Below, one piece after another: positions 47,584-57,315 of a stretch of DNA of 64,000 nucleotides (the first letter of the stretch is position 1; the number at the start of each line of letters is the position of its first letter). This DNA comes from Mucilaginibacter empetricola (lineage in GTDB: Bacteria > Bacteroidota > Bacteroidia > Sphingobacteriales > Sphingobacteriaceae). The notes below the pieces were generated by a model. The model saw only the letters and a program-made list of their open reading frames with translations, did no database searches and had not been told where the DNA came from. The stretch is taken from NCBI RefSeq assembly GCF_024808665.1, contig NZ_JANUBZ010000002.1, positions 248,001 to 312,000 of the forward strand, given 5' to 3'. A program made the translations under genes and the position numbers.

Positions 47584-47608
47584 TAGTCTTTTGCTAAAGG
47601 CTTTTTTT
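47575..47608 (+). terminator. Intrinsic terminator overlapping the convergent gene's stop
   Basis: AGCCTTTAG and CTAAAGGCT form a 9-bp stem with a T-run. It ends the AraC-DoxX unit and overlaps the last codons of the gene at 47594 on the other strand. Confidence 0.88.
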
Positions 47609-48703
47609 ATTTCGGTGATTGCTGCCGTCAGCTTTCACTTCGCTTAAATAATGCAAGATACGAACACGCTTGTTTTTGTCCTGCAAGCCGTTTTTCAACA
47701 CTTGGTAATGTGCATTTATGAATAAGAGGTTATCGCTGGAAAGGTAGTAAGATATTATTTGCGGGCGGGTAATTTTAGATTGTTCATAGTTACCCTGATA
47801 TGTTTTTGAGCGCTCGTCCCATCGGTATTGAACGGTGGTTGAATCTTTTATTATGTAAGGACCAAAATCAATATCATTTTCTGAAGCAGGAAATTGGTTA
47901 TAATAAACCATTTTGATAGTTAAGGGATTGTTTTTCTCTATTGTAGATTCCAACCACAAAGCTCGCTCCACAGGTGCCGTTACATTCCCATTTTCAAGTT
48001 CATTTAAAACCGGGATCAGTTTATTGCCGTCGTATTTGTAGAAGAAATAATTGAACCACCATTCGTTTGATCCTTCGGCAAACATATAACAATAGTAAAT
48101 TACTGTTTTGCCGTCGCTGTCTTGATAATGATATAAACCTGATTCAAAACGCTCATAAAAATTGTGCATAGCTATAACCCTTTTACCTTTAAAAAAATAC
48201 AAGCAAGCGTTTGGACAATGATCCGGATCGCCAATGCAAACGGCGTATTCATTAAGGGTTCCTTTATTTTTGCTGAAGGGATAAAGCTCTATGGGCGTAA
48301 GTCCTTGTTTGTAAGTTAAAAAGACGCTTTTTTCTGTGCATGAGCTATCAATCGCGGGGTTGTTGAAAATACGCCTGGCAACACTCACCCTTATAGCTCC
48401 CTTACGGATGGCTTTTTTTAGTGCTTTCAAGTCACGATCTGATATTAGCGTATCTAATTGTCGCTGATTTTTGAAAATTGAATCAGCATAAAACGCTTCT
48501 TTATTTGCAAGTAATTTGGTTGATAACTTACCTACGCTATCCAAAAAAAATTCCAACTGCCGATCGGTATATTGAATAATTGGCTTCCCGGTAGTGTCCG
48601 CAATTGATACTTTTATCTCCGCCGTCTTTTTGTTGCCCGGCTTAAACCCATGGCCGCAACCAGCTGTCACAAAAATTGTGAGTATGGCAAGAATCCTCTT
48701 CAA
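47594..48703 (-). CDS. Hypothetical lipoprotein
   Basis: A 369-residue protein. The signal peptide ends in lipobox FVTAGC (Cys16). The mature part is Lys-rich at the start and mostly beta-rich, with a Cys pair (CPNAC) near the middle and a basic tail. No family is recognised. The start is a TTG at 48703 (MKRILAILTIF), because no in-frame ATG precedes it and a stop lies two codons upstream. The tail KKSL is encoded within the shared terminator. Confidence 0.6.
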   Translation of the reverse strand: MKRILAILTIFVTAGCGHGFKPGNKKTAEIKVSIADTTGKPIIQYTDRQLEFFLDSVGKLSTKLLANKEAFYADSIFKNQRQLDTLISDRDLKALKKAIRKGAIRVSVARRIFNNPAIDSSCTEKSVFLTYKQGLTPIELYPFSKNKGTLNEYAVCIGDPDHCPNACLYFFKGKRVIAMHNFYERFESGLYHYQDSDGKTVIYYCYMFAEGSNEWWFNYFFYKYDGNKLIPVLNELENGNVTAPVERALWLESTIEKNNPLTIKMVYYNQFPASENDIDFGPYIIKDSTTVQYRWDERSKTYQGNYEQSKITRPQIISYYLSSDNLLFINAHYQVLKNGLQDKNKRVRILHYLSEVKADGSNHRNKKSL

Positions 48704-48869: not shown

Positions 48870-49880
48870 TCATTTATTTAAGGTTGTTTCGTACAAAACG
48901 GCGCCGTTATAACTTACGGCCTTAACATTCAGTCTCTTTGCATCTACAGAAAAATACATGAAGCCATGTTCTGAAGCTTCGAATTTGCTGTATGGGATTC
49001 CCGAAGTTACTTTTGTTAATTCGGATCCTGCACCTGATATAAATTGATGACAAAAACCATCGGGTGTAAGGTGCTGTAGTGAATGTTCGTGGCCTGATAA
49101 ATAAATATCTACTTTGTTATCTGCAAATATTTGCGGCAGTGTTTTCCTCATCGTTAACGTATCATAATTATTAATACGCGGACCAACCGTGTAACATGGG
49201 TGATGACCGATCACAATCTTCCACTTAACATCTGCCGAAGCATTTGCCAATGTATCCTTCAGCCATGCTATTTGTTTTTCAACATAATCAGCCTTGTCTT
49301 CATGTAAAAATGGATCGGTATCCATCATTACAAAAAGTACTTTATCTTTAGTTTTAGGCGCGCCAGGGGTTTTTATTTCTTTGTCTGCGTCTTTGTTTAA
49401 GCTAACTTCTTTTGAATAGTAGCGCGCGGGCATGTCCCAGCGGCGGCTTATTTTACTATATCTTATTTGTGCATCAACATCGGAGTGCCAATCGTGATTA
49501 CCTAAAACCGGATACCAGTCGCATTGCAGCGAGTGAGCCGTATAAATATTTTCAAATGAATAATGCCATAACGGATCTTCTTCGCTGACCACTCCCTTTG
49601 GATAAAAGTTATCGCCAACAGAAATAACAAAATTATTAGGGTGTGATGCTCCCCATAATCCCATTTGCGCTGCAACCTGAGATTGATCATATTCGCCATT
49701 GCGACCCCAATCTCCCAGGGCCATAAAGTGTAGGGCATAATCATCTTTCAATGCCGATGGCGAGAGGTCTTTACTGTCAAAATGGGTTACTGTAGGCCCG
49801 GCCAGTGAGCTTAAAGGCGCTATTATAGAGGCACCTATAGCTGCCAGGGCTGTGTTTTTTACAAAATCTCTGCGTTCCAT
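48870..49880 (-). CDS. Tat-exported purple-acid-phosphatase-like metallophosphoesterase
   Basis: A 336-residue enzyme with a Tat-type signal (ERRDFVKNTALAAIGA). The five metallophosphatase blocks are complete: GDWGR (Asp57), GDN (Asp90, Asn91), GNHDW (128-132), then GHHPCY and SGHEHSL. The Tyr of the GDxxY block of purple acid phosphatases is matched by NFYPKG. A binuclear metal site can therefore form. It is last in the operon, 5 bp after the YncE-like gene, so it is likely co-expressed with the receptor and probably releases phosphate from an imported or surface ligand (inference). Confidence 0.86.
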   Translation of the reverse strand: MERRDFVKNTALAAIGASIIAPLSSLAGPTVTHFDSKDLSPSALKDDYALHFMALGDWGRNGEYDQSQVAAQMGLWGASHPNNFVISVGDNFYPKGVVSEEDPLWHYSFENIYTAHSLQCDWYPVLGNHDWHSDVDAQIRYSKISRRWDMPARYYSKEVSLNKDADKEIKTPGAPKTKDKVLFVMMDTDPFLHEDKADYVEKQIAWLKDTLANASADVKWKIVIGHHPCYTVGPRINNYDTLTMRKTLPQIFADNKVDIYLSGHEHSLQHLTPDGFCHQFISGAGSELTKVTSGIPYSKFEASEHGFMYFSVDAKRLNVKAVSYNGAVLYETTLNK

Positions 49881-49885
49881 ATTAA

Positions 49886-50887
49886 TTATTTAAGAGTGAA
49901 TACCAACACCTTAAATGTGTCGGCTATTTGAGTTTTAGTTCCGGGCTGATAATCGGCCACCGGGAAATATAATTTATGGGTGATAATATCTAACGCCATA
50001 GTTTTAGCGCGATACTGTGTTTTTAGCGTTTGGACCAGTTCATAACTATCTGCCGAGTTCTGCTTAAATATAGTAGCAGTTCCATCGCCATTGGAAGCGA
50101 TAACTAATTTAGTTGAGGCATCATAAACTACAGCATCAACGCCGGTACCAATGGGTAAAGTTTGTACTATTTTTCCGGTTTGTGCATTTATAACACTCAT
50201 GCCTTTATTTTGACGACAAACAGTAAATAAACGCTGATTATCTATATCTATAGCAATGCCAGTAGGGCCACCACATGGTTCGAGCGGGTAATTATGAATT
50301 ACTTTAAGGTTTTTGGTATCAATAATATTAAGACTGCTTTTGTCTTCCAAATTGTTATAAATCAAGCCTTTGCCATCGGCAACTGCAAACTCCGGGCTTC
50401 CACCTAAATCAACCGTGCCTGTTTGTTTTAACTCCCCGGGATCAACCACCACAGCACTTTTACTATCACCCTCAAAAGCAAATATTTTTTTTGACGATGG
50501 ATCATAAATAATGCCATCGGGGCCATTGCCCGTTAGAGGTATGGTTTTAATAACCTGCAAGGTATTTATATCAAAAGCCACAATGGCATTTGCTTTTCCG
50601 TCGCTTATAAAACCTCTGTTCAAATCGTTTGCAACGGCTATACCGTGTACGCCCTTCATGCCGGCAATGGTTCCAACAACTTGTTCCGTTTTTAGGTCGA
50701 TAACGTTTACTGCTGTACCGTGCGACAGATATAATTTGTGATTGGGCTGATCAATAAAAGCATAATCATAACCACCATTACCCTGTACAGCAATAGTTTT
50801 ATCCAACACATAGTTTTGAGCTGATGAACTTAACGGGTTGATGAGGAAGCCGCCAATAAGAAGAAAGAATAGCGTAATTTTTTTCAT
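49886..50887 (-). CDS. YncE-like secreted beta-propeller protein
   Basis: A 333-residue protein with a signal peptide ending near SSAQ (about 24) and a seven-bladed YVTN/YncE-type propeller. The repeats show the shape VIDLKTEQVVGTIAG, AFDINTLQVIKTIPL and VINAQTGKIVQTLPI. Propellers of this group bind DNA, proteins or small ligands, and some bacterial phytases share the fold, but the calcium-site residues of phytases are not evident. Its position between a beta-helix lipoprotein and a phosphatase suggests a shared envelope role. Confidence 0.85.
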   Translation of the reverse strand: MKKITLFFLLIGGFLINPLSSSAQNYVLDKTIAVQGNGGYDYAFIDQPNHKLYLSHGTAVNVIDLKTEQVVGTIAGMKGVHGIAVANDLNRGFISDGKANAIVAFDINTLQVIKTIPLTGNGPDGIIYDPSSKKIFAFEGDSKSAVVVDPGELKQTGTVDLGGSPEFAVADGKGLIYNNLEDKSSLNIIDTKNLKVIHNYPLEPCGGPTGIAIDIDNQRLFTVCRQNKGMSVINAQTGKIVQTLPIGTGVDAVVYDASTKLVIASNGDGTATIFKQNSADSYELVQTLKTQYRAKTMALDIITHKLYFPVADYQPGTKTQIADTFKVLVFTLK

Positions 50888-50962: not shown

Positions 50963-52216
50963 TTAGTGCTTGTTGCCCTTGCCGTCTGTTGGGTAGGCTC
51001 CTAAATCGATATCGGGAGTAGTACCACCGGCTAACGAAGGATTAAACAGTACAAATGAGGTGTTTCCTTTGCCTATTGCAGGTGAGCCACTTTGTAAATG
51101 ATAATTATTAGGATCAACTGCACCGGTTGCGGTGGCTACTTCTGAGGCAACAAAAGTGTTAAACAGCGGATTAAAACTGGTTAATGAAGTTGATACCAGG
51201 TCAGTAGCCTGTGCTTTGCCAACACCGTCAGTAGGGAAGAAGTTAGCTCTTATATTTACAGGAACGGGTGGCGTAACTGTATTATCAGCAAATGCATCAA
51301 CCGAAGCATAGTAAAGGTTGTTACCATAGTTTACATGCGTAACATCAGCAGCAGCATACATCTCAAATCCTTCGTAATTATTTACAAATATGTTGTTGTA
51401 AACATTTGCTTTTGCATTCAAATCTATGGAAACGCCTCTGCCGGGCTCACCCGCACCTCTTCTCCATCCACAATCAACTGCTGTATTGTTATAAATATCA
51501 ACGCTTGTTTGCGGAATTGGCGAAGTATCGCTGGTTTCTAACTTAATTGCTGTACCGGCCTGGCTAAAAATCACATTGTAAGCAACCACGCCGGTAACAC
51601 CTGTTTTAAGGTTAATGCATTCGCCATCAGTACTTCCGTTTGATGCAAAAGTGTTTCTTAGTACAGTGATTTTAGCGCCGCTTTTCATCGCAACAATATC
51701 ATCTTCACCACCGGTTATCCAGCAATCTTCAATATCTACATTAATTGGCGCAGCAACTGCTATTGTTTTGCGTGGAGATGCAGTTGGATCTAAACCACCG
51801 GTGTTGTTAATGTGTGCCCACTTAATGGTTACCGCCTGTGCTGTATCGCATTGAAAACCACCCCAGGTACCGGGCGTATTTTTATCTGAATTAAAAGATA
51901 CAGGATTAGCTTGTGTACCTAAAATTTGCAATACACCGTTAATAGTAAATTGAGAGTTATTTTGAACAATTATAATTGCTCCCGGTTGTGAAGCCAGGGT
52001 GTCGCCTTTTTTTACGGTGATATCACCTGTTACGGTGTAGGTTATGCCGGTTAATAATGTGCCCTTTAAAAATCCGCTTATGTTTCCGGCTGCAATAGGG
52101 TGGGAAGGCGGAATTACAGGAGTAGTTTCTTTAGTGTTTTCCTTTTTTGAACAGGAAACAATGCTTACAGCCATTGCTATGGCCGCAATTAATAATGGTA
52201 CTTGTTTTGTTTTCAT
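50963..52216 (-). CDS. Right-handed parallel beta-helix lipoprotein
   Basis: A 417-residue lipoprotein with lipobox SIVSC (Cys22). The mature region has repeating short beta turns with Asn ladders (TVDIYNNTAVDCGW, NVYNNIFVNNYEGF), the mark of a right-handed parallel beta-helix, as in pectate lyases and other surface glycan-binding proteins. The N-terminal half has the ITVKKGDTLASQPGAIIIVQNNSQF motif found in many Bacteroidota surface proteins. Catalytic residues are not identifiable. It follows the TonB receptor gene by 35 bp. Confidence 0.82.
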   Translation of the reverse strand: MKTKQVPLLIAAIAMAVSIVSCSKKENTKETTPVIPPSHPIAAGNISGFLKGTLLTGITYTVTGDITVKKGDTLASQPGAIIIVQNNSQFTINGVLQILGTQANPVSFNSDKNTPGTWGGFQCDTAQAVTIKWAHINNTGGLDPTASPRKTIAVAAPINVDIEDCWITGGEDDIVAMKSGAKITVLRNTFASNGSTDGECINLKTGVTGVVAYNVIFSQAGTAIKLETSDTSPIPQTSVDIYNNTAVDCGWRRGAGEPGRGVSIDLNAKANVYNNIFVNNYEGFEMYAAADVTHVNYGNNLYYASVDAFADNTVTPPVPVNIRANFFPTDGVGKAQATDLVSTSLTSFNPLFNTFVASEVATATGAVDPNNYHLQSGSPAIGKGNTSFVLFNPSLAGGTTPDIDLGAYPTDGKGNKH

Positions 52217-52251: not shown

Positions 52252-54984
52252 TTAGTGTACGTAACGGATACCTATCAGGCCATTAGGCTGTGTTAGGTCG
52301 TGGCCATTTACAAGGCCGTCAATTTTAATAATGGTGGCTGTATTGAGCAGGTTATTGAATTTGCCAAAAATGGTAAAGTGCTTCCCAATAGCTTTATCAG
52401 CCGAGAGGGATAAAAAAGATTGCGGTTGTTGGTAATAATCACCGCCCAGATCCTGATTTATACGATATAAAGTTTTGCCTGTATACTGGAAGGCCAGTTG
52501 TATGAATAACTTCTTAACGCTGTTTTTATATTCAAGCGAAAGATTAAGCTCATCATCTGCCTGACCCTGCAGGGGGCGGTCCTGAGTTACCGTGTTGCCG
52601 GTTGTTGGATCTTTATATGATCCGGCAACGTTTGAAAATGTGCGGGCGTAATTGCCGGTGATCCCAATGTTGCCAAAGAATTTGGTGTAGGTGGCTTCGG
52701 CGCCATATACTGTTGCCTGGGGCGAGTTTACGGGTTCGTAGGTGTAACTATCAACAAACTGATATTCGATAGGATTTTGAAGGTTTTTATAAAAACCGCC
52801 TATAAATAACTCCTGATCTGCTTTTGGGAAAAACTCATAGCGGAGATCAAAATTATTGGATGTTGTATGCTGTAAAAAGGCGTTTCCTTTGTCTGAAGTT
52901 CCGTCATTTCCAGCCGGCTGTGTTACCGGTATTATTTCATAATAGCCGGGACGGGAAATGGATGCATAATAAGACGCCCTGATATTTGTTTTTTCATTAA
53001 GCCTGTATTTCAGGTTTAAACTCGGTAAAATATCTGAATATGATTTGGTTACATTATCAGGAGCATCCTGTTCAAACTGCAAAAAGTGATACCCCTGGGA
53101 CGTGTTTTCTAACCTGACACCGCCAATAATATCCAGTTTATTTATTGTAAGCTTAAATTCTCCGAAGGCAGCAGTGATATCTTCAAAAACATGATAGTTA
53201 TTTAAATCATAGCCGGCGGTACCGTTGGGGTTTATAACAGAATCGCGCACCGAATAAATATTAACAAATTGCTGCCTGCTGCCTATGTTATTGTCTCCCC
53301 CTGGCGCAAACAGGATGTACTGATTTTGGTAATTATTTCGTTCCTTATGTCGATATAAGCCGCCTGCTTTCAGTTCGAGTATACTGTTACCCAGCTTTGT
53401 TTTATAGGTAAGGTTAAGTAAACCATCATAATCCTTATCTTCATTATGCTGCCAGATGCGGGTGCTGCCATCATAGTAATAAGGTGTACTAACAAATTTG
53501 TTAACGCTATCAGGCTCGTATGATATTCGTTTGTTGGTTGTATATTCTGCTCTGTCTGGTGCTTTATTGCTTGCACTGGATAATACGCCTGTCCAATCCA
53601 GTAATAAGTGATCAGTCAGGATGTGTTTACCCTGAACTTTTAAATTCTCGAGAAACTGCTGATAGGTGGAAGAAGTGTTATCCTGGTGGATGGATCCGGT
53701 ACCCGGTACCGGTTTTCCCATGTATATGGTACGGGGTGCATCGCCGCCAACTATTGTAGTGTCGGTACTTAAAAAGGCCTGCGCAAAATAGGTGTACAAT
53801 AAAACATTGTCCAACGTTATTTTATTGCGTTTATCAAGATCATAATCAGCATGCAAAACAAGCCCATTGTTTATCTGGTGATTGGAATAGGTTCTGTTTT
53901 CAATATCAGTGAGATAAGGTTTAAAACCATTATTAGGATCTTCAGCTGCGGGGTTTAATTGTGAATTATCTCCGAAATATTGGTTTTGATAATTATCGGC
54001 CACCAGGATGCCCAACTTATTATCAAAGAACCTTTTTCCATAAGTAAAACCAAATAGCGTATTGGGCGGTGCGGTAATATTCTTAAAATCAAGGTTCGAC
54101 CTGCTGAAATCAGCCGGAGAGGGCACATAATTTGGCCCTATTTTATCATACGGACTTTCGGCCTGAATATCCTTTTTTGAAAAATCAACAAATTTCCTAT
54201 CTAAAAATATAGCGCTATAGCCTACAGATGCGCTCGCATTAAATATTAATGAATCGGGCGCATCCTTAAAAACCATATTTACGGTTCCACCAATAGCGTC
54301 ACCTTCCATTTCGGGCGTTAATGATTTGCTTACTTCAATGCGCTGCAATAAATCTGATGGTACAATACTTAATGAAACAAACCTTGATTTATCATCGGGA
54401 CTGGTAATTTTTACACCATTTATTAAAGTGTTATTATAACGGGGTTCCATACCCCTTATCACGGCGTAAGCATCATCGCCCCCATTATTGCGTTGAATAG
54501 TAACACCGGACACCCTTTGAAGTACGTTGGCCGCATTAATATCCGGCGACTGCAAAATTGCTTTTGCCCCAACTACGTTGGTGACGTTATCTGCATTCTT
54601 TTCGGATGATCGTGAAGCAGCGTCCGATTCTTTGTCAAGCTTTCCAAAAATGCTTACAGTTTGAAGAGCATTAGTTTTAAGATTCAGTTTAATATCCAAT
54701 ACCATCACCTGGCTTGAACTGAGTTTTATTTTTTGCTCAAATTCTGAATACCCGAAAAATTTCACTTTCACCTTATACTCGCCGGGTACAAGGTTTGCAA
54801 GTGTATACTCGCCTTTTCCGTTTGCCGAAACTGCATCGTCATGATCATCCAGATGTATTACAGCGCCGGGTAAAGCGTCGCCGGTTTGCTTATCAGTAAT
54901 GCGGCCTTTAAGCGTTGCATTTTGTGCGAAAGCTGCTGTTGTGAGGAGAAAGGAAAATATTAAAAAGTAAAATTTTTTGCCCAT
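52252..54984 (-). CDS. TonB-dependent receptor with carboxypeptidase-like N-domain
   Basis: A 910-residue outer membrane receptor. A signal peptide ends at TAAFAQ (about 21). A carboxypeptidase regulatory-like domain follows (ATLKGRITDKQTGDALPGAVI), then the plug (about 130-240, with IQRNNGGDDAYAVIRGMEPRYNNTLINGV) and a 22-strand barrel ending in a terminal His. It has no SusD partner. It is the first gene of an operon with a beta-helix lipoprotein, a propeller and a phosphatase. Its promoter carries a TATTCA direct repeat shared with the two-component system. Confidence 0.9.
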   Translation of the reverse strand: MGKKFYFLIFSFLLTTAAFAQNATLKGRITDKQTGDALPGAVIHLDDHDDAVSANGKGEYTLANLVPGEYKVKVKFFGYSEFEQKIKLSSSQVMVLDIKLNLKTNALQTVSIFGKLDKESDAASRSSEKNADNVTNVVGAKAILQSPDINAANVLQRVSGVTIQRNNGGDDAYAVIRGMEPRYNNTLINGVKITSPDDKSRFVSLSIVPSDLLQRIEVSKSLTPEMEGDAIGGTVNMVFKDAPDSLIFNASASVGYSAIFLDRKFVDFSKKDIQAESPYDKIGPNYVPSPADFSRSNLDFKNITAPPNTLFGFTYGKRFFDNKLGILVADNYQNQYFGDNSQLNPAAEDPNNGFKPYLTDIENRTYSNHQINNGLVLHADYDLDKRNKITLDNVLLYTYFAQAFLSTDTTIVGGDAPRTIYMGKPVPGTGSIHQDNTSSTYQQFLENLKVQGKHILTDHLLLDWTGVLSSASNKAPDRAEYTTNKRISYEPDSVNKFVSTPYYYDGSTRIWQHNEDKDYDGLLNLTYKTKLGNSILELKAGGLYRHKERNNYQNQYILFAPGGDNNIGSRQQFVNIYSVRDSVINPNGTAGYDLNNYHVFEDITAAFGEFKLTINKLDIIGGVRLENTSQGYHFLQFEQDAPDNVTKSYSDILPSLNLKYRLNEKTNIRASYYASISRPGYYEIIPVTQPAGNDGTSDKGNAFLQHTTSNNFDLRYEFFPKADQELFIGGFYKNLQNPIEYQFVDSYTYEPVNSPQATVYGAEATYTKFFGNIGITGNYARTFSNVAGSYKDPTTGNTVTQDRPLQGQADDELNLSLEYKNSVKKLFIQLAFQYTGKTLYRINQDLGGDYYQQPQSFLSLSADKAIGKHFTIFGKFNNLLNTATIIKIDGLVNGHDLTQPNGLIGIRYVH

Positions 54985-55004: not shown

Positions 55005-55040
55005 CAAATCACAGGGGCAATTCTGAATAATATTTGAATA
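55005..55040 (-). promoter_or_regulatory. Response-regulator site and promoter of the receptor operon
   Basis: On the minus strand TATTCA-N5-TATTCA (55040-55024) is followed, 11 nt later, by the -7-like octamer ending in TTTG at 55005. The repeat lies 40 bp before the receptor ATG. The regulator gene has the same arrangement with the same spacing. Confidence 0.65.
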
Positions 55041-55153
55041 TGGAGGTCAAAATGCAAGCCTTAATTATATGATAATGGAGGCTTAACAATCAAGTACCAG
55101 GCGGTAGGTTTTGGGACTTTTATAAGGCTATAAATTAACACTGGTTTTAAATA

Positions 55154-56452
55154 TTAAACCTGATTTGGGAAGGTTATTATAAATGTATGATATGGAGAGG
55201 AGAATCTGTAACCCAATAACAAATTGAAGTTTTCGCATATCTGCCGCGATATGGTTAAACCTAAACCGCTCCCTTCTGAACCGGATGATTTATGAAACCG
55301 TACAAATATTTTTTCGTCATTTAACGGCTCATTACTCCCTGTATTGCGGATAGTAAAACTTTCACCCGTTAGGTTAATAATTATTTCGCCATCCGCGTAA
55401 TTATGTCTTATCGCGTTAAGAATAAGGTTACTTAGCAAAATTTCCATTAAATAGCGGTTGGCATAAATGCTTTTTTCTTGTAAGTTATAAGTGAGTTTTA
55501 ATCTCTTGTTGCGATAGATATCATCAAACTGAATAATCAGCCCTTCAATTACCTCGTGCAAATTAATCTGTTGCCGTTCATCAAGCAGCTGATTTTCAAT
55601 TTTAACCAGTAATAGCAAAGAATGATTTAACCTATTTAATCGTAAAACACCGCTGTATAGTTCCGTTAATAATTTGCCTTGCCATTCGTCAAAATTTTCA
55701 GTTTGAATAAGCAGATCCAGTTTTGAGTTAATTATTGCAATAGGAGTATTGAGTTCATGTGCAGCATTTTCAGTAAACGTTTTTAGTGTTTGATAATCGC
55801 GCTTTGCTTTTGCGCTCATATTCGTTACTGAATTATTTAACCGCTTAAATTCATCTATATTAGTATCAAGACGGGGAATTACTTTTTTATCTGCGATATT
55901 GAACAGGTCCAGTTCCTGCACAAGATTATAAAAAGGCTGCCAGAGCCGGTTTAAAATAAGCCGGTTGGTTGCAAATAATATGATTAGTAACAGCAGAATA
56001 ACACCTATAGTGATACTGAAGATGATCCGGATCAAGTCCTCCGTTTCTACTTTTGATTGAATGATGGATACTTTATAATCCTGATTTGCAATTGTAACAG
56101 TGGTAATGAGGCCTCTGGCGGGCTCATATTCTCCTACAGCATGAAAGTGGCGCCTTTTAGGGTTATTTTTACCCCATTTTTTAAAATAAATGGTATCAAC
56201 AAGTTTCCGCTTTACCGAGCCCGGTTTTATTTTTGTGAAGACAATTTGCTGGTGTTTGGTTTCAAAAGCATCGGGCAAACGTTGATTGGCATTTACATAT
56301 TCATAAATCTCTTTTTCTTCATCTGCTAAATCTTTGTCTTTTTGCCGGGTTAATATCCAACTGATTGCCTGGTAATAAGCTATGCCCGTTAAAAGCATTA
56401 TAATTATGGTGGTGATGAGGGTTACGCGGTTGTATCTTGCTAAAAGTTTCAT
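55154..56452 (-). CDS. Sensor histidine kinase
   Basis: A 432-residue HAMP-less histidine kinase. Two TM helices (about 10-30 and 148-170) bound a periplasmic domain of about 120 residues. The H-box reads ENAAHELNTPIA, the N-box NLILNAIRHNYADG, and the G-box region DEKIFVRFHKSSGSEGSGLGL. The start is the ATG at 56452, which overlaps the regulator stop in TGATG. It transfers phosphate to the upstream OmpR-type regulator. The unusual periplasmic domain gives no ligand hint. Confidence 0.9.
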   Translation of the reverse strand: MKLLARYNRVTLITTIIIMLLTGIAYYQAISWILTRQKDKDLADEEKEIYEYVNANQRLPDAFETKHQQIVFTKIKPGSVKRKLVDTIYFKKWGKNNPKRRHFHAVGEYEPARGLITTVTIANQDYKVSIIQSKVETEDLIRIIFSITIGVILLLLIILFATNRLILNRLWQPFYNLVQELDLFNIADKKVIPRLDTNIDEFKRLNNSVTNMSAKAKRDYQTLKTFTENAAHELNTPIAIINSKLDLLIQTENFDEWQGKLLTELYSGVLRLNRLNHSLLLLVKIENQLLDERQQINLHEVIEGLIIQFDDIYRNKRLKLTYNLQEKSIYANRYLMEILLSNLILNAIRHNYADGEIIINLTGESFTIRNTGSNEPLNDEKIFVRFHKSSGSEGSGLGLTISRQICENFNLLLGYRFSSPYHTFIITFPNQV

Positions 56453-57132
56453 CAACCTATAAATTTATATCCCATTCCATAAGCTGCCCGTATATAATCT
56501 TTACCGCTGGCTTCCATTAATTTTTTGCGGATATTTTTAATATGGGCGTAAATAAAATTAAAATCATCGGTTATATCCACACCATCACCCCAAAGGTGTT
56601 CTGCAATAGCGTTTTTTGAAACCACTTTACCTTTGTTTGCTATAAAATAAAGTAACAGCGCATATTCTTTTGGTGTAAGCTTTATATCTTCATTTCCTAT
56701 TTTAACTTCTTTCCCAATCAAGTCAATAGTAATTTCATTAATTGTCAGTAAATTACTACCAGAACCATTAAATGTTTTACGGCGAACGATAGCAGTAATC
56801 CGCGATCTTAATTCAGACAGGTGAAATGGTTTAACCAGATAATCATCCGCACCCAGATCCAGGCCTTGCAGCCGGTCGTCGAGCGAGTCTTTAGCCGATA
56901 TAATCAATATGCCATCGCTATGGTTATTCTCCTTTAAATTTTTCAGCAAATTGATGCCATTGCCATCGGGCAGCGTAATATCTAATAAGATGCAATCGTA
57001 CCGGTAGAGATTTATTTTTTCCAGTGCCGTTGCGTAGTTGGCGGCAGTTTCACAAAGATTGCCCGTTCCTTTGAAATATTCTTCAATACTTCCCCTTAGG
57101 CTTTGTTCGTCTTCAATGATGAGGATCTTCAA
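56452..57132 (-). CDS. OmpR-family response regulator
   Basis: A 226-residue regulator. The receiver domain has the phosphoacceptor Asp in LLDITLPDGNG and the Lys of LVKPFHLSEL. The C-terminal winged helix-turn-helix (about 130-226) reads KGKVVSKNAIAEHLWG, then FNFIYAHIKNIRKKL and the last strand AAYGMGYKFIG. The start is a TTG at 57132 giving MKILIIEDE, as no in-frame ATG precedes it. It is coupled to the kinase by TGATG. Its own promoter carries the same TATTCA repeat as the receptor operon, implying autoregulation. Confidence 0.92.
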   Translation of the reverse strand: MKILIIEDEQSLRGSIEEYFKGTGNLCETAANYATALEKINLYRYDCILLDITLPDGNGINLLKNLKENNHSDGILIISAKDSLDDRLQGLDLGADDYLVKPFHLSELRSRITAIVRRKTFNGSGSNLLTINEITIDLIGKEVKIGNEDIKLTPKEYALLLYFIANKGKVVSKNAIAEHLWGDGVDITDDFNFIYAHIKNIRKKLMEASGKDYIRAAYGMGYKFIG

Positions 57133-57144
57133 AAATTTTTCTTG

Positions 57145-57180
57145 TAAAGTTAAAATGTAATAGTGAATATATTCTGAATA
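57145..57180 (-). promoter_or_regulatory. Response-regulator site and promoter of the two-component operon
   Basis: On the minus strand TATTCA-N5-TATTCA (57180-57164) is followed, 11 nt later, by TAACTTTA (57152-57145), close to TAnnTTTG. The distance from repeat to -7 end is 19 nt, the same as in the receptor promoter. Confidence 0.65.
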
Positions 57181-57288
57181 TTGAACCGGGTGGTTAAATA
57201 AATTGGAATAATAATCTTTTTCTGATTAATGCTTTAAGGTTGAGCTTTGCCAAACTTATAACTTGCCTGCCTCGACTACATAAACAAG

Positions 57289-57315
57289 AAAGCCTGATAT
57301 TTCTATCAGGCTTTT
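57289..57315 (-). terminator. Intrinsic terminator after the SusCD operon
   Basis: AAAGCCTGATA and TATCAGGCTTT form an 11-bp stem around TTTC. It lies 23 bp after the SusD stop on the minus strand. Confidence 0.85.

Follow-up and report, generated by a model that had tools for sequence, protein, structure and literature searches.

A putative 11-bp direct-repeat operator at the promoters of an OmpR-type regulator gene and a TonB-receptor operon in Mucilaginibacter

Described OmpR-type systems and the organization of the locus

The pho box of Escherichia coli repeats with an 11-bp step. PhoB, which carries an OmpR-type DNA-binding domain, is described as binding direct repeats as a tandem dimer, at sites that overlap the -35 sites in PhoB-activated promoters (PMC3348028). 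For PmrA/BasR (Klebsiella, E. coli), tandem half-sites are reported to be read by helix alpha-3 (PMC3973317). Operators made of direct repeats for OmpR-type regulators are a known kind. In the PorY-PorX-SigP system of type IX secretion, the regulator PorX has a PglZ-type output domain and no OmpR-type DNA-binding domain. In Bacillus subtilis, the PhoP box is TTAACA-N5-TTAACA. Finally, Fjoh_0545 and Fjoh_0546, in the phoBR operon of Flavobacterium johnsoniae, are described as a TonB receptor and lipoprotein FII that are inducible by low Pi (PMC8115612).

The window analysed here, i.e. a stretch of 64,000 nucleotides from Mucilaginibacter empetricola, encodes a two-component pair on its minus strand. 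The regulator gene (56452..57132, TTG start at 57132) codes for a 226-aa protein of the OmpR/PhoB family, with the receiver domain (Response_reg, PF00072) and the winged-helix output domain (Trans_reg_C, PF00486) of this type and with direct repeats at an 11-bp step near its core promoter. It aligns to BasR/PmrA, KdpE and other such PDB chains, BasR being among its nearest solved relatives. It remains under the PhoB model cut-offs (153.2 of 296.2 and 147.7 of 270 bits) and reaches 175.4 of 330 bits on the PmrA model. The kinase gene (55154..56455, minus strand) codes for a 433-aa sensor with HisKA and HATPase_c domains, which passes the NCBI model of the PorY family (NF052314, 430 bits for a cut-off of 350). 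However, its partner is a regulator of the OmpR type and has a DNA-binding domain of its own, Trans_reg_C, and the pair is therefore not assigned to the PorXY-SigP system; a domain search of the operon genes found no T9SS component among them. A relative of the kinase (E ≤ 1e-40) occurs in 222 of the 301 genomes of the family, a high base rate against which its presence in 33 of 34 further receptor-holding genomes should be read. Compared with E. coli PhoB, the system described here has a TNCA half-site, a Bacteroidota-type -7 element instead of a -10 element, a PorY-family kinase, and envelope genes as candidate targets. It also differs from the PmrA/BasR boxes in half-site sequence and in targets.

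The receptor operon lies on the same strand. It encodes a TonB-dependent receptor of 910 aa (52252..54984, ATG start at 54984) with CarbopepD_reg_2, Plug and beta-barrel domains, a right-handed beta-helix protein of 417 aa (50963..52216; Beta_helix, NosD), a YncE-like beta-propeller protein of 333 aa (49886..50887; YNCE, PF21783) and a calcineurin-like metallophosphoesterase of 336 aa (48870..49880; Metallophos, PF00149). A 369-aa protein encoded at 47594-48703 (minus strand) matched no Pfam or NCBIfam model at E ≤ 0.001, and tblastn against the related loci examined gave nothing at 1e-10. A further likeness involves IPR011050, the pectin-lyase fold. As described in PMC8115612, F. johnsoniae has a TonB receptor and an IPR011050 lipoprotein beside a two-component pair, and the two loci are likened here by gene content alone. 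The pair described in that source is PhoBR itself, whereas the window has a PorY-family pair and its probable PHO box is a separate element.

The direct repeat at regulator and receptor promoters

On the minus strand, TATTCA-N5-TATTCA, i.e. two TNCA half-sites 11 bp apart, is found in the regulator promoter (57164..57180, TATTCAGAATATATTCA) and in the TonB-receptor promoter (55024..55040, TATTCAAATATTATTCA). Both sites are hereafter called the RR box, the putative operator. The -7-like element of the regulator promoter, TAACTTTA (57145..57152, minus strand), has the form TANNTTTR and begins 11 nt 3' of the RR box, and that of the receptor promoter, GTGATTTG (55005..55012, minus strand), has the TTTG without the TA. 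The initial annotation had reported the repeat at these two places, with the same 19 nt from its last base to the end of the TTTA or TTTG; coordinates, letters and distance are all correct. A terminator-like hairpin (57288..57315, a consensus match on both strands) separates the regulator promoter from the SusD gene upstream, and the region contains 4 terminator-like sites for a shuffle mean of 2.1. In the window, 12 nt separate the end of the -7-like element from the regulator start codon. At locus L089, this element ends 4 nt 5' of the regulator GTG, which suggests a leaderless or nearly leaderless mRNA for that regulator. In L089 and other loci, the RR box begins 40 nt before the regulator start codon.

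We then considered how rare the exact word is. Only these two matches are perfect among the 22 with at most two mismatches in the window, a moderate excess over the shuffle mean of 13.9, the number 22 being reached by 5 of 100 shuffles. Across the genome (5.83 Mb), 4 exact copies were counted, compared with 3 for the reversed control pattern. The genome search that the initial annotation had put forward as a check recovers both promoters; the other two copies are inside ORFs (L001 in one of 172 aa, L004 at the start of one of 507 aa). With at most one mismatch, 79 matches were found for 54 with the control, so that the TATTCA word alone is weakly discriminating; it was rejected as the code itself and replaced by TNCA-N7-TNCA. 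Two consensus patterns were also discarded, the first giving 2 sites for 2 in the control and missing known sites, the second giving 3 sites for 2 at one mismatch or less, without those of the window. These patterns being poor detectors, a matrix was used for the box. The evidence for the earlier statement that the shared repeat is unlikely by chance comes from the comparison across loci.

For this comparison, the regulator-promoter set comprised 41 loci, i.e. the window and the 40 best-scoring kinase places. The two nearest orthologous loci, L062 (= G285) and L113 (= G337), keep the repeats at both promoters: on the regulator side the 17-mer is identical to that of the window, and on the receptor side the two hexamers persist around a different 5-nt spacer. 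In related loci, the flanking DNA diverges while the boxes persist. Pairs of THCA at period 11 are present in 22 of the 41 regulator upstreams (shuffle mean 1.2, maximum 4). Three of the other periods from 5 to 33 exceed the shuffle maximum, i.e. 16 (8 of 41 loci), 19 and 21 (5 each). The same pairs occur in 16 of 24 held-out upstreams, for 5 or fewer at any other period. The 11-bp period emphasized in the initial annotation thus stands far above other periods and shuffles. Moreover, a TANNTTTR-like element lies 11 or 12 nt 3' of the pair in 21 of the 22 loci with a full pair. Across these loci, the box code is broader than TATTCA and consists of TNCA half-sites at an 11-bp period (TNCA-N7-TNCA). 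After the kinase gene of L089, L091 and L100, three tandem half-sites at 11-bp steps precede the gene of a small exported protein, which is PepSY_like in L091.

On the receptor side, a match to the receptor (E ≤ 1e-120) is present in 124 of the 149 genomes of the genus. Among the 42 close matches listed (at least 48% identity), 38 receptor promoters were examined, including those of the window and L062. The box aligns 46-56 nt before the receptor start in all 38, of which 36 meet the seed pattern; the alignment scores (29.8-53.2) were fitted on the same sequences and are not independent evidence. In 36 of the 38 promoters, TTTG or TTTA starts 15 nt past the second half-site, and the -7-like 8-mer begins with TA in none of the 38. 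The two-component pair is adjacent to the receptor in 6 of these loci, and the receptor operons of the other 32 retain the box.

A 25-column matrix was trained only on these 32 receptor promoters, the regulator promoters being different DNA; the effective number of training sequences is below 32, since they include the near-identical L141-L145. On the 41 regulator upstreams, the mean best score was 7.7, compared with -9.6 after shuffling (sd of the mean 0.8). At p ≤ 0.05, the box was detected before the regulator gene in 37 of the 41 loci, 32 of which reached p ≤ 0.01; it was not found (p > 0.05) in L072, L084, L085 and L090. A held-out set of 30 further loci was drawn from receptor genomes, 28 of which were scored, two having no regulator match. 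The box was detected in 21 of 28 at p ≤ 0.05 or, after removal of 4 loci whose receptor-linked pair had already been seen, in 17 of 24, no box being found (p > 0.05) in the remaining 7. In the 130 nt after the kinase gene it scored in 24 of 41 loci, the genes that follow in L061 being those of an RND pump; this stretch is too short for the receptor box of the window and L062, which count as misses although the box exists. The proposal that regulator and receptor promoters carry the same box is therefore supported on two non-homologous kinds of promoters. Together with the coincidence of box and recognition-helix variants in one clade (see below), these results strongly support in silico the prediction of a single OmpR-type regulator acting through an 11-bp direct repeat both at its own gene and at the receptor operon.

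To look for a candidate regulon, we scanned 1.0 Mb of loci on both strands (2.01 million strand-positions). At a score of at least 5, 94 sites were at expected places, training promoters included, and 126 were elsewhere. Among the latter, 33 of the 43 scoring at least 10 and 18 of the 83 scoring 5-10 are located outside large ORFs and have an ORF start 36-190 nt downstream; these are raw counts. Candidate targets include TonB-receptor-type outer-membrane proteins (own genome C10, L281; L145), the YncE-like genes of RND loci L068, L071, L074, L075 and L077, and a weakly identified propeller in L091 (23.7 of 27.1 bits). The candidate regulon would thus be larger than two promoters, further boxes preceding other envelope genes. 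The initial annotation had expected hits limited to a small regulon: the box is indeed unevenly spread over the promoters of the loci scanned, but it is not limited to two of them. Outside the expected places, the top scores (25.9 and 29.3) belong to L198:3753 (C8:266254 in the own genome) and L199:3028 (C25:15505). No ORF start was found 36-190 nt downstream of either, and their target is uncertain; one is some 310 nt upstream of where a 965-aa TonB receptor is predicted to start, and the other has a triple-TTA element and an ECF sigma gene as neighbours.

A second element in the receptor promoter

A second element, overlooked by the initial annotation, is present in the receptor promoter. 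It consists of three TTA at an 11-bp period (55061..55086, minus strand, TTAAGCCTCCATTATCATATAATTAA) and is a probable PHO box. Before the receptor box, 36 of the 38 loci have 9 of 9 key bases and the other two have 8 of 9, for a mean of 0.37 loci and a maximum of 2 in shuffles. It is separated from the RR box by 48 nt in 32 loci, by 47 nt in 4 and by 37 nt, one repeat step less, in 2. Like the B. subtilis PhoP box, it has TTAAC-like half-sites at an 11-bp step, but it comes from another phylum and has three half-sites, the central one being TTA[TC].

The exact pattern occurs twice in this genome, before the receptor and before the gene of the PafA phosphatase. Allowing one mismatch, 57 matches were found for 34 with the control, and single matches therefore mean little. 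Related triples in this genome precede its best PhoB match, which is below both PhoB cut-offs (229.6 of 296.2 and 216.5 of 270 bits), and the gene preceding pstS, a 482-aa gene with no Pfam or NCBIfam match, for which an identity as a porin was rejected on this ground. For the latter, 16 of 21 matches were examined, one per genome (this genome and 15 relatives). All 16 loci have the triple TTA, 15 of them in reverse orientation (shuffle mean 0.5, maximum 3), and pstS is directly downstream in 14; L240 is cut by a contig end and none was found in L245. Because the triple TTA precedes this gene in all 16 loci and is thus shared with pst promoters across the genus, we regard it as the probable PHO box of Mucilaginibacter; the receptor operon then probably belongs to the PHO regulon, like the TonB receptor and lipoprotein FII of F. 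johnsoniae (PMC8115612), and PhoB, we infer, binds the element. The pafA promoters as a set do not share it: among 30 of 38 PafA matches examined, only 4 have the element (shuffle maximum 3), and PafA was dropped as a witness because, although found in this genome, the element is absent from the other 26 upstreams. PafA is described as Pi-irrepressible (PMC8115612). The RR box is a feature of neither the pstS-preceding-gene set nor the pafA set (mean scores -5.0 and -8.6, best 6.0 and 5.1, respectively).

Clade variant, paralogue and proposed regulation

The TATTCA repeat had been presented as the shared signal. It is common to both promoters, but by comparison of loci TATTCA/TATTCA is the variant of one clade (3 loci) of TNCA-N7-TNCA and not the general code. 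Among the 57 of 69 upstreams scoring at least 0, TTCA/TTCA at the regulator promoter occurs only in the genomes of the window, L062 and L113. The receptor box of the window-clade loci is the same TTCA variant, and L114-L116 have TMCA half-sites at both promoters. The regulators of these three genomes (G337, i.e. L113, entering this comparison as L251) are the only 3 of 71 with T188, D190 and A196 together, none of which occurs singly in the 68 others; residue 196 is A in these 3 and S in the 68. A196 aligns with the recognition-helix Val of BasR/PmrA, which we equate with PhoB Val197; PhoB Thr194 and Val197 are described as contacting thymines in both half-sites (PMC3973317). A joint change of box and recognition helix in this clade is suggestive only, and the coincidence counts as one event because a single clade is concerned.

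The same genome carries a paralogous PorY-type pair (L061, C10:203500-215300), the regulator of which is 75% identical to that of the window. Its neighbours are an RND pump, a YncE-like propeller and a sphingolipid-desaturase-like protein, and further boxes are present before the pump and before a divergent TonB-receptor-type protein. The box at the promoter of the paralogue itself is TCCA-N7-TACA. By the topology of a midpoint-rooted protein tree, the receptor-linked pairs cluster together, next to a group that holds the RND-linked pair of the same genome. The pair of the window looks like a lineage-specific, receptor-linked copy of the pair adjoining an RND pump in this and other genomes.

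The explanation that we favour, with a probability of about 0.78, is that the repeat is the operator of the adjacent OmpR/PhoB-family regulator, which would activate its own gene and, with an input from PhoB, the receptor operon. A signal, which the candidate targets suggest to be something at the cell envelope, would reach the PorY-family kinase and result in phosphorylation of the regulator. The phosphorylated regulator would bind as a head-to-tail dimer to the two TNCA half-sites 11 bp apart. The bound box would occupy the position expected for a -33 element, and the regulator would activate transcription from the weak -7 element 11 nt downstream, both at its own gene (autoactivation) and at the operon encoding the TonB receptor, beta-helix protein, YncE-like protein and metallophosphoesterase. 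At the receptor promoter, the triple TTA, 48 nt before the RR box and presumably bound by PhoB, would join in. This operon would then take two OmpR-type inputs, phosphate limitation and the PorY-kinase signal, i.e. an OmpR-type regulator would drive a phosphate-scavenging receptor operon together with PhoB. Activation is preferred because the box is where a -33 element would be expected and the receptor -7 element is poor, which resembles PhoB-type activation with sites overlapping -35 (PMC3348028).

Other explanations were weighed against this one. The regulator might bind both boxes and repress, blocking RNA polymerase at -33 until the kinase signal relieves it. The box does overlap the core promoter region and the sign of regulation is deduced here from sequence, but we consider repression unlikely, given a receptor -7-like element without TA in 38 of 38 promoters and a box that replaces the -33 element at near-fixed spacing, as described for PhoB-activated promoters (PMC3348028). 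Slightly less likely still is a reading of the boxes not, or not only, by the neighbouring regulator but by a different protein of the OmpR type, above all the RND-locus paralogue. The 75% identity of the paralogue, its own TCCA-N7-TACA box and the retention of the box in 32 of 38 receptor operons without an adjacent pair would be consistent with this; however, both linked promoters have TTCA in the clade of the window whereas the box at the paralogue's own promoter, in the same genome, lacks it, and the two regulators differ at residues 188, 190 and 196.

The fixed spacing to TTTG/TTTA, 15 nt in 36 of the 38 receptor promoters, could also mean that the box belongs to an extended core promoter recognized by a special sigma factor, the 11-bp period being coincidental. 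We regard this as very improbable, as a third half-site is found at the same 11-bp step in L089, L091 and L100 and the box variant coincides with a regulator variant. Chance similarity, or plain inheritance of unconstrained DNA, is hardly credible. The one-mismatch matches (79 vs. 54) are only moderately above the control, but the shuffle tests and the cross-promoter matrix test, with the scores on the 41 loci and on the held-out loci, contradict chance, and the boxes stay while their flanks diverge. Beyond activation by the neighbouring regulator, which we retain, we tentatively propose, at slightly less than even odds, a composite promoter on which PhoB and the partner of the PorY-family kinase would occupy 11-bp arrays at a near-fixed phase of 48 nt and gate the phosphate-scavenging operon. 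In one clade, the receptor-linked pair would be insulated from its RND paralogue by a joint change of the operator (TNCA to TTCA) and of the helix region.

Among the titles and abstracts searched, none was found to describe this operator or the PHO box of the genus. Within this literature, the operator of this regulator group, the PHO element of the genus and the two-element promoter are new. They would provide an operator code, open to testing, for the regulators that work with PorY-family kinases, a relative of which is encoded in most of the sampled genomes of the family (222/301), and would link a PorY-family system to phosphate scavenging by an outer-membrane receptor. Finally, the clade with altered operators and an altered helix region offers a natural experiment on the separation of targets between paralogous two-component systems.
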